From positions 1 through 46,001 of IMG/VR virus record IMGVR_UViG_3300031957_000640: a stretch of DNA of 46,001 bases, one strand, 5' to 3'. The position numbers were made by a program, and so were the translations under genes. Every line of letters begins with the position of its first letter. Positions within the stretch are counted from its first letter, which is position 1. The notes beneath the pieces were generated by a model. That model worked only from the letters and a program-made list of their open reading frames with translations. It was not told where the DNA came from and did no database searches. The stretch is from a virus. Below, piece after piece: positions 6,966-20,265 of the stretch.

Positions 6966-7184
6966 ATGATAAAAGAATATAAAAAATATATAGAAGATTT
7001 AGAAAAAAGGCTAGCTTATTATGAAAAATTAGACCAAAAAAGTTTTTTACAAATTCTTAAATTAGAAAATAAAATTATTAATTATGAAACTAATTATATA
7101 AAATATTCTAAATATGAGGAGTTACAAAATAATTATATTAATGTAGTGCAAATTTTAAATAATAAAAATAGAGGTGTAAAATGA
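6966..7184 (+). CDS. Unknown coiled-coil protein, 72 aa
   Basis: Unrecognised. Nearly all Lys, Glu, Asn, Tyr, Ile and Leu with a heptad-like pattern (MIKEYKKYIEDLEKRL), so probably a coiled coil. It starts after an AGAGGCG ribosome site and overlaps the next gene by four bases (ATGA), which suggests coupled translation with the GP88-like gene. Confidence 0.6.
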   Translation: MIKEYKKYIEDLEKRLAYYEKLDQKSFLQILKLENKIINYETNYIKYSKYEELQNNYINVVQILNNKNRGVK

Positions 7185-7831
7185 AAGTAAGGTTTACAAG
7201 GATGTCCAAAAATAATAAAATTGGTTTAATGCCGGTAACAACTAGTGAGGCCAGTAGTTGCCCTAGTTCTTGCCCTTTAAAAGATAAAAATATTTGCTAT
7301 GCAAAAAAGGGCAAAATGAGAATGATTTGGAACGAGGTAGACACTGGAATAAGTGGGAGACATAAAACAAAATTTAATAATGATTATGATAGTTTCATAA
7401 AAGAGATTCATAAATTGCCAAAGGGTACTATTTGGAGACACAACCAAGCTGGAGACCTTGCGCATACTGGCAATAATGAAACTATAGATTTTGATTTATT
7501 AAAAAGATTAGTAAAGGCCAATAGAGGAAAAAATGGCTTTACTTATACCCATAAAACAAAAGAAGCTAATAATTTTGATAAAATAAAATATGCAAATGAT
7601 AACGGCTTTACTATTAATCTATCAGCCAATAATTTAAATCATGCTGACGAATTAAAACAATATGATTTACCTATTGCTACTATAGTTGGCACTAAGCCAG
7701 TTAATAAAACACCCCAAGGCCATAAAATAAAAATGTGCCCTAATCAAAAGAATAAAAGTATTAAGTGTGAATTGTGTCAGTGGTGTAGCAAAAAAGATAG
7801 GAAGTTTATAGTAGGATTTTTAAAAGATTAA
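7181..7831 (+). CDS. GP88/DUF7227-like cysteine-rich phage protein, 216 aa
   Basis: The start resembles the GP88-type phage family: a short basic strand, then NNKIGLMPVTTSEASSCPSS with Cys at 27, 31 and 39. A central segment RHNQAGDLAH lies at 86-95, and a second cluster (C186, C196, C199, C202) is near the C-terminus. Seven cysteines in two groups suggest a zinc site or an Fe-S cluster. Biochemical function is not established to my knowledge. It is probably an early protein with a nucleic-acid role, by position only. Family recognition is from motif memory, not a search. Confidence 0.7.
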   Translation: MKVRFTRMSKNNKIGLMPVTTSEASSCPSSCPLKDKNICYAKKGKMRMIWNEVDTGISGRHKTKFNNDYDSFIKEIHKLPKGTIWRHNQAGDLAHTGNNETIDFDLLKRLVKANRGKNGFTYTHKTKEANNFDKIKYANDNGFTINLSANNLNHADELKQYDLPIATIVGTKPVNKTPQGHKIKMCPNQKNKSIKCELCQWCSKKDRKFIVGFLKD

Positions 7832-8034: not shown

Positions 8035-8186
8035 GAAATAAAAAATATGATTTATTAAACTATTTTATATATGATAAAAAATATCTAAGTAAAGCCTATA
8101 TAAAACACGTTGAAAAGTTTTTGGAGTCTATAGGAAAAACTAATAGTAGATATAGATATAATAAAAATAACAGTAATGTATATTAA
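8031..8186 (+). CDS. Unknown basic peptide, 51 aa
   Basis: Unrecognised. The product starts MRNKKYDLLNYFIYDKKY and is rich in Lys, Tyr and Asn. Support comes from the ATGA overlap with the preceding gene and an uninterrupted frame of 52 codons. It is the last gene before a 115-base non-coding gap with direct repeats. Confidence 0.5.
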   Translation: MRNKKYDLLNYFIYDKKYLSKAYIKHVEKFLESIGKTNSRYRYNKNNSNVY

Positions 8187-8210
8187 TAATATAAATAATA
8201 ATTTTAAAAA

Positions 8211-8260
8211 ACTTATAAAGATATTTAAAATTTAAAACACTTATAAAGATATTTAAAATT
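8211..8260 (+). repeat. Two perfect 22-nt direct repeats in a short intergenic gap
   Basis: ACTTATAAAGATATTTAAAA followed by TT occurs at 8211-8232 and again at 8239-8260, six bases apart (28-bp period). It sits in the non-coding gap 8187-8301 upstream of the 77-aa gene. A head-to-tail binding site for a regulator or replication protein is plausible. A recent small duplication is the alternative. Confidence 0.75.
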
Positions 8261-8301
8261 ATTATTTATAAAAATAAAATTAACAATAGGAGATAAAAAA
8301 A

Positions 8302-8539: not shown

Positions 8540-8701
8540 ATGAAGATAAAAGATATAAAAAAGTTTATAGAAGTTGCGCACAATAAAGAAATACCTAAAG
8601 ATGTAGAGGAATTCTTTAAGCAAGATAGAAAGGGAGTTACTATAGAAGATATGGACTTCATACATTTTGTAAGAGCAATGATAAAAGAGGTTAGAAAATA
8701 G
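8540..8701 (+). CDS. Unknown 53-aa protein
   Basis: Unrecognised charged helical protein (MKIKDIKKFIEVAHNKEI...). It starts four bases after the previous stop, with that gene's GGATAAAA end serving as a weak ribosome site. Its stop codon (8699-8701) lies inside the left arm of the long stem of the following structured element, so translation and RNA folding may compete there. Confidence 0.55.
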   Translation: MKIKDIKKFIEVAHNKEIPKDVEEFFKQDRKGVTIEDMDFIHFVRAMIKEVRK

Positions 8702-8900
8702 CCTTTAATGGAGAGTGTCTATGGGTCAGGTGATTAGTAAAGATTCTGCAGAATGAGAGTTATATCTCACTAAGTGTACTGGCATAGGCCGTTCTTAGAG
8801 TAATAAAAGATAATCCTTGGAGTTATAACCAAGGTGTCTAAGTAGGAATTATAACTTCCTAAAGATTGGTTCGAATCCTTTACTCTCCATTAAGGGCTAT
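8698..8900 (+). ncRNA. tRNA-like structured RNA of unknown class, about 200 nt
   Basis: Bases 8698-8716 pair with 8882-8900 over 19 positions with a single G-U wobble. Its inner seven pairs GGAGAGT/ACTCTCC resemble a tRNA-Ser acceptor stem. GGTTCGAATCC at 8868-8878 is a perfect T-loop motif, exactly five bases from the 3' acceptor strand. CAGGTGA at 8728-8734 resembles a D-loop. The middle is not a normal tRNA: it holds hairpins at 8743-8754, 8754-8769, 8770-8798, 8815-8834 and 8843-8861. The loops of the last two (GTTATAA and TTATAAC) are complementary and could kiss. No anticodon arm, CCA or open reading frame is convincing. A tRNA with a large insertion, or a new phage RNA, are the options. 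Confidence 0.6.
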
Positions 8901-18623: not shown

Positions 18624-19481
18624 ATGAAAAAAATAGATACAATAGTAGAAGATATATATGGTTTGTTTGAGAAGAAGAATGAACATCTTACTGAGAAAGA
18701 AGTAGATAAATGTATAGATGATTTTGCTAGCTCGGTTAAAGTGCATGTAAAAGATTTCTTAAAACAGATGCCTCAAGATAAACCTAGGTTAAGATTATCA
18801 ACTATAGGTAGACCAGACAGGCAACTGTGGTATGATTTTAAACAGCCTCGCACCGAGTCTTTCCTACCTAGTACCAGGATTAAGTTTCTCTATGGTTATA
18901 TCTTAGAAGAACTATTAATTATGCTTGCCTCTATCTCTGGACATAAGGTAACTCAACAACAGAAGCAAGTAGAAGTGGAAGGAGTTAAAGGACATCAAGA
19001 TTGTTTTATAGATGACGTATTAGTAGATTGTAAGAGTGCCTCTGGTAGAGGATATAATAAATTTAAATATAATAATTTATCAACTGACGACCCTTTCGGA
19101 TACATTCCTCAGATATCTGCATACGCAGAAGGTAATGGAGTAAATGAAGCCGGCTTTCTAGTTATTAATAAATCTACAGGAGAACTATGTTATACAAAAG
19201 TACATTCATTGGAGATGATAAATGCTAAAGAAAGAGTTAAGAAGATTAAAGAAGTGGTTAAGTCTGATACTGCACCGGACAAATGCTACCCTGCTGTTGC
19301 TGATGGCAAGTCTGGGAATTATAAGCTTGCTACTGGTTGTATTTATTGTAGTCATAAGCATACTTGTTGGAGTGATGCTAATAGTGGTAAAGGACTTCGT
19401 GCTTTTAATTATTCAACTGGTAAAAGATATCTTACACATGTTGAGAAAGCACCTAACGTAGAGGAAGTACATGATAAATAG
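18624..19481 (+). CDS. PD-(D/E)XK exonuclease, RecB/Cas4-like, 285 aa
   Basis: Likely 5' exonuclease for host DNA degradation or recombination. The nuclease core shows E95, GHQD (D126) and VDCK (D135, K137), the RecB-family triad. Four cysteines near the C-terminus (KCYP, GCIYC, HTCW) could ligate an Fe-S cluster as in Cas4/AddB-type enzymes. Starts directly after the ssb terminator. Its 3' end overlaps a GIY-YIG homing endonuclease by 11 bases. T7-like phages carry gp6-type exonuclease here, but this protein belongs to a different nuclease fold. Confidence 0.75.
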   Translation: MKKIDTIVEDIYGLFEKKNEHLTEKEVDKCIDDFASSVKVHVKDFLKQMPQDKPRLRLSTIGRPDRQLWYDFKQPRTESFLPSTRIKFLYGYILEELLIMLASISGHKVTQQQKQVEVEGVKGHQDCFIDDVLVDCKSASGRGYNKFKYNNLSTDDPFGYIPQISAYAEGNGVNEAGFLVINKSTGELCYTKVHSLEMINAKERVKKIKEVVKSDTAPDKCYPAVADGKSGNYKLATGCIYCSHKHTCWSDANSGKGLRAFNYSTGKRYLTHVEKAPNVEEVHDK

Positions 19482-20265
19482 TCATTGGACTTGTTATGGC
19501 ACAGAAAAATCTTTTGTGCCTAACGAGGATAAGTTTGGTTTTGTTTATATTATAACAAATACTAAGAATGGTAAGGCCTATGTAGGATGTAAACAATATT
19601 ACTCTATGACTAAAAAGAAAACAAAACATAAGTGGGAGATGTATACAGGTTCATCTAAATATTTAAATAAAGATATAGAAAAAATAGGTAAAGAACATTT
19701 TAAATTTGAAGTAATAGCAGAGTATAAAAACAAAAGAAGTTTACGTTACTATGAGATGTACTATCAAGTAAAGTGGAATGTTCTTACTGCTACTGTAGAA
19801 GGTAGTGATAAAAGAGCATATTATAATTCCTATGTTGGTGGTAAATTTTTTCCTCCTATTGAGTTATATCAAGACCCAGAATATAAAAAAATGATGCGTA
19901 AAAAAGTATATGATAATCCTAAAGTTGCAGATAAAAAAAGAAAGTCAGCTTTAAAAAGAGAAGAGAATATTGAATATAAAAAAAAGATGAGAAAGAATAA
20001 TTATGATAATCTTGAAGTTAAAAAAAAGCAAAGTGAAAAAAATTTAGGAGAAAAAAATTCTAGTGCACTTGGACCTCATAAATTAACTTTTAAAGATGGT
20101 CGTTTAATAATTGTTTCTAATTTAGCTAGATGGGCTATGGATAGTAATAAATATGATTGGGCACAACTCTTTCATTTAAAAAAAGGTTATAAAATACAAG
20201 ATGGAAAAAAAATTAGAATATTAAAATGTAAAGATATAATTAAAGTGGAGAAAGTAAATGATTAA
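19471..20265 (+). CDS. GIY-YIG homing endonuclease, 264 aa
   Basis: Freestanding selfish DNA endonuclease. The GIY-YIG signature appears as GFVYIITNTKNGKAYVGCK (residues 23-41), with the catalytic Glu at E95 in LRYYEMYYQ. The rest is Lys-rich, with repeated YDN/NMOD-like DNA-binding segments. Base composition is even more A-rich than the neighbours, consistent with separate origin. ATG overlaps the exonuclease stop (ATGATAAATAG), and its own end overlaps the HNH gene by eight bases. Confidence 0.9.
   Translation: MINSHWTCYGTEKSFVPNEDKFGFVYIITNTKNGKAYVGCKQYYSMTKKKTKHKWEMYTGSSKYLNKDIEKIGKEHFKFEVIAEYKNKRSLRYYEMYYQVKWNVLTATVEGSDKRAYYNSYVGGKFFPPIELYQDPEYKKMMRKKVYDNPKVADKKRKSALKREENIEYKKKMRKNNYDNLEVKKKQSEKNLGEKNSSALGPHKLTFKDGRLIIVSNLARWAMDSNKYDWAQLFHLKKGYKIQDGKKIRILKCKDIIKVEKVND

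Follow-up and report, generated by a model that had tools for sequence, protein, structure and literature searches.

A conserved, structured RNA with a loop–loop lock, encoded on the + strand of a viral genome fragment, is shown by covariation among homologous sequences. As judged from these comparisons, it is a member of a previously uncatalogued family of phage non-coding RNAs, about 165–200 nt (~180 nt) long between the two strands of the acceptor-like stem (A1 to A1′). The fragment, hereafter the window, is the whole 46-kb stretch of an IMG/VR virus record that was analysed. We favour, at a probability of roughly 0.45, the reading that this tRNA-like RNA is released from an early transcript and acts in trans as a non-decoding tRNA mimic, occupying a host protein that handles tRNAs. 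It would be a tRNA look-alike of a new kind, perhaps deployed by these phages against a host machine that handles tRNAs, and it raises the question of why a phage makes a tRNA-shaped RNA yet holds its anticodon loop shut.

A first-pass annotation of the window had drawn attention to a 19-pair stem with one wobble between 8698–8716 and 8882–8900. Direct reading of the sequence gives 19 continuous pairs including one G-U. This is the longest such pair of arms lying ≤260 nt apart in the whole window, and no stem of ≥19 pairs was present in 20 dinucleotide-shuffled windows. The sole other gapless stem of ≥19 pairs in the window (≤260 nt) is an inverted repeat at 8190–8270 composed of A+T only. The fold energy of the region is –66.5 kcal/mol (z = –4.55), a value that 0/200 shuffles equalled. 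The parts of the RNA and the adjoining reading frame are as follows (window coordinates).

8540–8701, + strand: 53-aa ORF directly upstream of the RNA; part of a shared gain/loss cassette
8698–8709, + strand: 5′ arm of stem P0, pairing with 8889–8900; includes the TAG with which the upstream ORF stops
8710–8716, + strand: 5′ strand (GGAGAGT) of acceptor-like stem A1; paired in all 22 sequences (100%), 2 of its pairs doubly changed
8717–8722, + strand: 5′ strand (GTCTAT) of P2a, pairing with 8784–8789; G-C/U-A/A-U covariation
8723–8724, + strand: D-loop-like GG bulge (equivalents of G18 and G19); 19/56 swap in L141/L151 versus L139
8725–8729, + strand: 5′ strand (GTCAG) of P2b, pairing with 8779–8783; double changes at 4/5 pairs
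8752–8771, + strand: P3 hairpin (AATGAGA/TCTCACT, loop GTTATA); double changes at 7/7 pairs
8779–8783, + strand: 3′ strand (CTGGC) of P2b, by covariation
8784–8789, + strand: 3′ strand (ATAGGC) of P2a, by covariation
8790–8793, + strand: junction CGTT, invariant or nearly so in the alignment
8794–8799, + strand: 5′ strand (CTTAGA) of P5, pairing with 8837–8842; 100% paired, double changes at 4/6 pairs
8800–8814, + strand: purine-rich internal-loop strand GTAATAAAAGAYAA; unpaired and near-invariant in 22 sequences (GTAATACAAGACAA in L177)
8815–8834, + strand: P6 hairpin (CCTTGG/CCAAGG); 99.2% paired, double changes at 5/6 pairs
8822–8828, + strand: L6, kissing (anti-anticodon) loop; 100% paired with 8849–8855 in 22 sequences
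8837–8842, + strand: 3′ strand (TCTAAG) of P5, by covariation
8843–8861, + strand: anticodon-like arm P7 with a 7-nt loop (TAGGAA/TTCCTA); pairing 100%, 2 of its pairs doubly changed
8849–8855, + strand: L7, anticodon-like loop Y-U-N-U-A-A-C; kissing partner of L6
8865–8881, + strand: T-like arm (ATTGG, loop TTCGAAT, CCTTT); two U-U mismatches, A-U there in 6–7 homologues
8882–8888, + strand: 3′ strand (ACTCTCC) of A1, by covariation
8889, + strand: discriminator-like A73; A in every homologue with its flank read, the next bases varying
8889–8900, + strand: 3′ arm of P0, by permutation of flank duplexes

Homologues were gathered by pattern scans of viral contigs and through tblastn neighbours. 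Beyond the window, 25 contigs, all viral, were found to carry 21 distinct sequences, which together with the window form an alignment set of 22. A covariance model built from 18 homologues scores the members at 111 to 198 bits; the lowest score belongs to L177, a divergent member found through relaxed patterns, and a final relaxed pattern scan returned no further members. The RNA is single-copy in each record searched and its presence is patchy: 7 of the 14 records tested lack it. No homologue was found by blastn, models or patterns among cultured phages and plasmids (blastn gave short T-arm or chance matches only) or by a covariance-model search of 397 genomes from the order of a Pelagibacteraceae genome, where a positive control was not possible. 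A pattern scan of genome contigs gave 23 matches and no homologue, nearly all of the matches being ordinary tRNAs after a chance GTAATAAAAGA and the remainder coding or other sequence.

Compensatory change, on which the first-pass annotation had made its proposal depend, is abundant among the 21 distinct homologues. Pairing is kept in 93.8% of pair cells over the 22 sequences, with double changes at 29/55 pairs. Cells changed on both sides number 145 against 43 in shuffles, none of the 500 shuffles reaching the observed value, and sliding the partner strand by 1–3 columns lowers pairing to 36–49%. The alignment counted here had been fitted to the structure, the kissing helix excepted; an unfitted MAFFT alignment, counted as a control, led to the same outcome (24 double-change pairs, 0/500 shuffles). 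RNAalifold, unaided, recovers helices A1, P2, P5, P6 and P7. G-U combinations outnumber A-C by 64 to 15 across the alignment, hence the + strand is the RNA strand; single-base indels fall within the conserved core, so the RNA is not coding. Taken as comparative evidence, these results make it almost certain that the proposed structure is correct. Patchy presence might suggest a chance inverted repeat, a decayed tRNA or a MITE-like insert, the latter two of which had been raised at the outset as ways for the proposal to fail. Covariation at 29 pairs, unmatched in 500 shuffles, refutes such an origin; the single copy per record searched also speaks against it, and its probability is negligible.

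The arms shown by covariation meet in a five-way junction: the acceptor-like A1, an extended D-arm-like P2/P3, the extra domain P5/P6, the anticodon-like arm P7 and the T-arm. The interior had been described as five hairpins in place of an anticodon arm. That layout of free hairpins was not borne out: P2 carries P3 at its end, P5 carries P6 at its tip and P7 is itself the anticodon-like arm. The long-range helices P2 (8717–8729/8779–8789) and P5 (8794–8799/8837–8842), evident from covariation, had been missed both by the first-pass annotation and by single-sequence MFE folding. The internal-loop strand of the P5/P6 domain has the near-invariant consensus GUAAUAAAAGAYAA (about 14–15 nt). An alternative pairing is possible between AGAGTAA (8797–8803, P5/internal loop) and TTACTCT (8880–8886, acceptor 3′ strand); the GAGTAA stem and the acceptor 3′ strand change together in L097 only.

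The 19-pair stem itself consists of two parts. Its inner 7 pairs (8710–8716/8882–8888) form the conserved, tRNA-like A1, while the outer 12 form a separate co-varying leader/trailer stem, P0. Native flank duplexes are more stable than swapped ones (–13.0 versus –9.5 kcal/mol; 0/2000 permutations), indicating coevolution of the two arms. We assign P0 to the leader and trailer and not to the core because it is short and interrupted in L082/L087 and not clear in L177.

The suggestion of a new tRNA-like phage RNA is upheld by the lack of an Rfam family or ARAGORN call, by the co-varying homologues and kissing contact, and by the tRNA-like ends, putative elbow and anticodon-like arm; we regard the tRNA-like nature of the RNA as quite probable. 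The resemblance of the inner seven pairs to an acceptor stem was borne out, A1 being conserved and 100% paired in 22 sequences. A T-loop-like sequence indeed lies in the expected place (GGTTCGAATCC at 8868–8878, adjoining the acceptor-like strand), and the two T-T mismatches reported in the T-stem are present, replaced by A-U in 6–7/22 homologues. Spacing as in a tRNA is seen for A1 with A73, for the T-arm and P7, whose loops are both of 7 nt, and for the linker of 3–4 nt. All members have a T-arm of 5 positions with a 7-nt loop, its stem cells being paired at 71.8% and its stem mismatched in many members. CCA is not encoded. The proposal of CAGGTGA as a D-loop proved wrong, the D-loop-like element being the GG bulge at 8723–8724. 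The close relatives L139 and L141 show 20 differences, 12 of which make up six compensatory pairs, one of them the putative elbow pair 19/56: G19 becomes C as T-loop C56 becomes G in one lineage (L141/L151 versus L139), and the pair is invariant elsewhere. This exchange of G19-C56 for C-G, confined to one lineage, is the change expected of a tRNA elbow; sequence comparison supports a tRNA-type elbow between the D-loop GG and the T-loop, together with tRNA-type ends with A73.

When P2b-P3 and P5-P6 were excised in silico, ARAGORN called tRNA-Tyr/(cta) in 18/22 sequences and in 0/440 with shuffled letters. As proof of a tRNA core this excision is weakened by a control in which random excisions of equal sizes were called at 65%, and because of this control we take the calls as support for the acceptor together with the 3′ half but not for the D-arm. 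Equivalence to a D-arm would instead rest on the GG bulge and the 19/56 swap of one lineage. The Rfam tRNA model aligns the 3′ half with the tRNA-like layout given above, but at 14.3 and 16.1 bits versus a cutoff of 29. Without excision, ARAGORN reports tRNA-Tyr(ata) in L082 (3166–3239) and L087 (6701–6774) only, and the acceptor paired in these calls differs from the conserved stem; where a viral contig is annotated with tRNA-Tyr(ata), a member of this RNA family could have been misnamed.

The two loops proposed to kiss are fully complementary (GTTATAA at 8822–8828, TTATAAC at 8849–8855), and the contact holds throughout the family: in 22/22 sequences each of the 7 bases of L7 has a possible partner in L6, so that no free anticodon loop of the kind found in a decoding tRNA is seen. 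The variable kissing pair 139/165 is found as U-A, C-G, G-C and U-G; a tree built without the kissing columns requires at least 6 changes at this pair, and the L6/L7 helix had been left out of the structural model. U33 and A37 of the anticodon-like NUA loop are always kept in the alignment, and N34 may be G, A or C, its L6 partner changing accordingly, so that it seems to be the pairing that is maintained, not a fixed anticodon. A working tRNA or suppressor, charged and decoding UAY or UAG once the L6 hairpin opens, would explain the constant U33, A37 and A73 and the ARAGORN calls after excision. We consider it very unlikely, given the free drift of N34 with L6, the T-stem mismatches, the fully paired loop and the two extra domains of an RNA far larger than tRNA. 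A tentative idea, which we hold at clearly less than even odds, is a tRNA with a built-in anti-anticodon: the L6 hairpin would mimic a codon (UAN) and cap the NUA loop in cis, giving a switchable or permanently locked tRNA recognised by a host or phage factor, possibly via the internal loop. We know of no cis-locked tRNA of this kind.

Fully complementary 7-nt loops would equally suit kissing between molecules, as in an oligomerising scaffold comparable to phi29 pRNA, GOLLD or ROOL, and GOLLD, ROOL and OLE are reported to form homo-oligomers (PMC12286853). L6 and L7 sit on neighbouring arms of one junction, where they can meet in cis, and oligomerisation leaves the tRNA-like ends and elbow unexplained; we think a scaffold improbable.

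ARAGORN finds no tRNA and no tmRNA in the window; no Rfam 15 family reaches its gathering score, with chance-level matches only at E≤10, and a permissive Rfam search of three homologues gave no family match. The earlier exclusion of a plain tRNA stands, the Rfam tRNA score being below cutoff. The RNA shares with canonical tRNA (RF00005, especially tRNA-Tyr) a 7-bp acceptor, A73, a 5-bp T-arm with a 7-nt loop, a putative G19-C56 elbow, a 5–6 bp anticodon-like arm with a 7-nt Y-U-N-U-A-A-C loop and a 3–4 nt variable linker. It differs in its two extra domains (P2b-P3, P5-P6), cis-paired anticodon-like loop, drifting N34, often mismatched T-stem and size of about 180 nt. The exclusion of tmRNA was likewise sound (best tmRNA score 7 bits versus a cutoff of 70). 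tmRNA (ssrA) is present in marine phages such as Melnitz (PMC9004378). It resembles our RNA in that an acceptor and T-arm are accompanied by inserted helices and a degenerate D-domain. In the phage RNA, however, ARAGORN finds no tag reading frame, P2 and the T-arm are not directly joined by a helix, and the length is half that of tmRNA. The bacterial Y RNA YrlA also carries a tRNA-like module inside a larger non-coding RNA; unlike YrlA, the phage RNA has no Rfam match, and no Ro/Rsr gene was recognised nearby among the part of the window ORFs scanned. In RNA genomes of plant viruses, tRNA-like structures such as the tyrosylatable one of the BMV type form the 3′ end and have a pseudoknotted acceptor. 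They too are viral tRNA mimics with extra domains, whereas the RNA described here has an ordinary acceptor stem and belongs to a DNA phage.

The window has a G+C content of 32% and encodes a portal, a terminase, a T7-like primase-helicase, DNA polymerase A and ribonucleotide reductase. The closest cultured relative of the terminase is that of Pelagibacter phage HTVC027P (40.5% identity), from which we infer marine phages with SAR11-like hosts; the carriers are probably phages of uncultured marine bacteria. The RNA lies in a window-type locus in 19/22 variants. An upstream ORF of 53–62 residues is present in 17/17 readable loci of this type (L137 and L129 end too close for it to be read), its stop codon lying 8–11 nt before A1, inside P0. 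L011, whose terminase is 93% identical, lacks both ORF and RNA, and its flanks match L107 on both sides; therefore ORF and RNA were gained or lost as one unit. In L082, L087 and L177 the RNA occupies other loci, where no such ORF adjoins it. L082/L087 are placed among other sequences in the tree, a position consistent with transfer of the RNA between phage types. A weak relative of the ORF in AP013541 has no RNA beside it.

An RNA–protein module, in which the 53-aa protein binds the RNA as a guide, scaffold or type III toxin–antitoxin-like pair and the RNA works only with the protein, would account for this constant neighbourhood and joint loss, and for a well-conserved protein (17 invariant residues) that is predicted to fold (pLDDT 86.8). 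The three RNAs with no adjoining ORF speak against it. Pfam and fold searches with the protein gave sub-threshold Pfam hits only, no RNA-binding or toxin family and no meaningful fold match, and direct reading of the RNA shows no repeat array of a type III antitoxin. We judge such a module unlikely.

A start codon follows the RNA by 37–102 nt in window-type loci, and in L082 a ribosome site comes directly after P0, as might be expected of a cis-regulatory leader or riboswitch for the downstream gene. However, several unrelated genes lie downstream at varying distances, each with a ribosome site of its own, which favours a discrete RNA over the leader of one gene. No terminator was found near the RNA on the + strand and there is no shared expression platform, so we give a regulatory leader little credence. 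On the minus strand, the sole terminator-like site nearby is the P6 hairpin (8815–8834) with ATTATCTTTT after it, a sequence complementary to the conserved internal loop. A consensus promoter scan upstream of the L082 RNA gave no support, though TTGACA-19-TATAAT is visible there by eye.

For the trans-acting mimic that we favour, we envisage the following course. The RNA would be expressed in the early region within a longer transcript and cut from the mRNA at the base of A1 by RNase P/Z-type processing, with the P0 stem helping. Once freed, it would act in trans as a stable tRNA mimic, one presumably unable to decode as its anticodon-like loop is held shut by L6, and would bind and occupy a host tRNA-cleaving defence nuclease, a synthetase, RNase P or EF-Tu, favouring the phage. 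A precedent for interference with tRNA cleavage exists: tRNA-Tyr of T5/T6 defeats PtuAB of retron-Eco7/Septu, which cuts tRNA-Tyr (PMC11555353, PMC13096335). Such anti-defence tRNAs resemble the present RNA in being phage-encoded, in their tRNA-Tyr-like loop and in a possible supply or decoy role, but they are ordinary decoding tRNAs, whereas here the loop is blocked. By analogy, a non-decoding tRNA-Tyr-like decoy may be a natural extension of this strategy. We place the decoy mechanism alone well below one half. A plain decoy should have no use for a dedicated ligand or partner, yet the near-invariant 14-nt internal loop hints at one; this counts against the favoured reading, as do the mismatched T-stems of many members and the lack of an encoded CCA. 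Should the RNA prove to be an anti-defence decoy or takeover RNA, the tRNAs that phages are known to supply would be joined by a non-decoding RNA, and a tRNA-targeting process would be indicated in hosts without studied defences.

Other features of the window were also recorded. A DUF7227 protein (7181–7831; Pfam PF23872; PHROG 2554, unknown function) with a cysteine-rich motif is encoded upstream of the RNA cassette, and its gene is retained there in several relatives. A GIY-YIG-type homing endonuclease-like ORF (19471–20265) lies among the replication genes. The A+T-rich intergenic stretch at 8180–8280 contains two 28-nt direct repeats (8200–8227, 8228–8255) within a 50-nt imperfect inverted repeat; a stretch resembling it is also found in L011, and it is possibly a phage origin or regulatory site.
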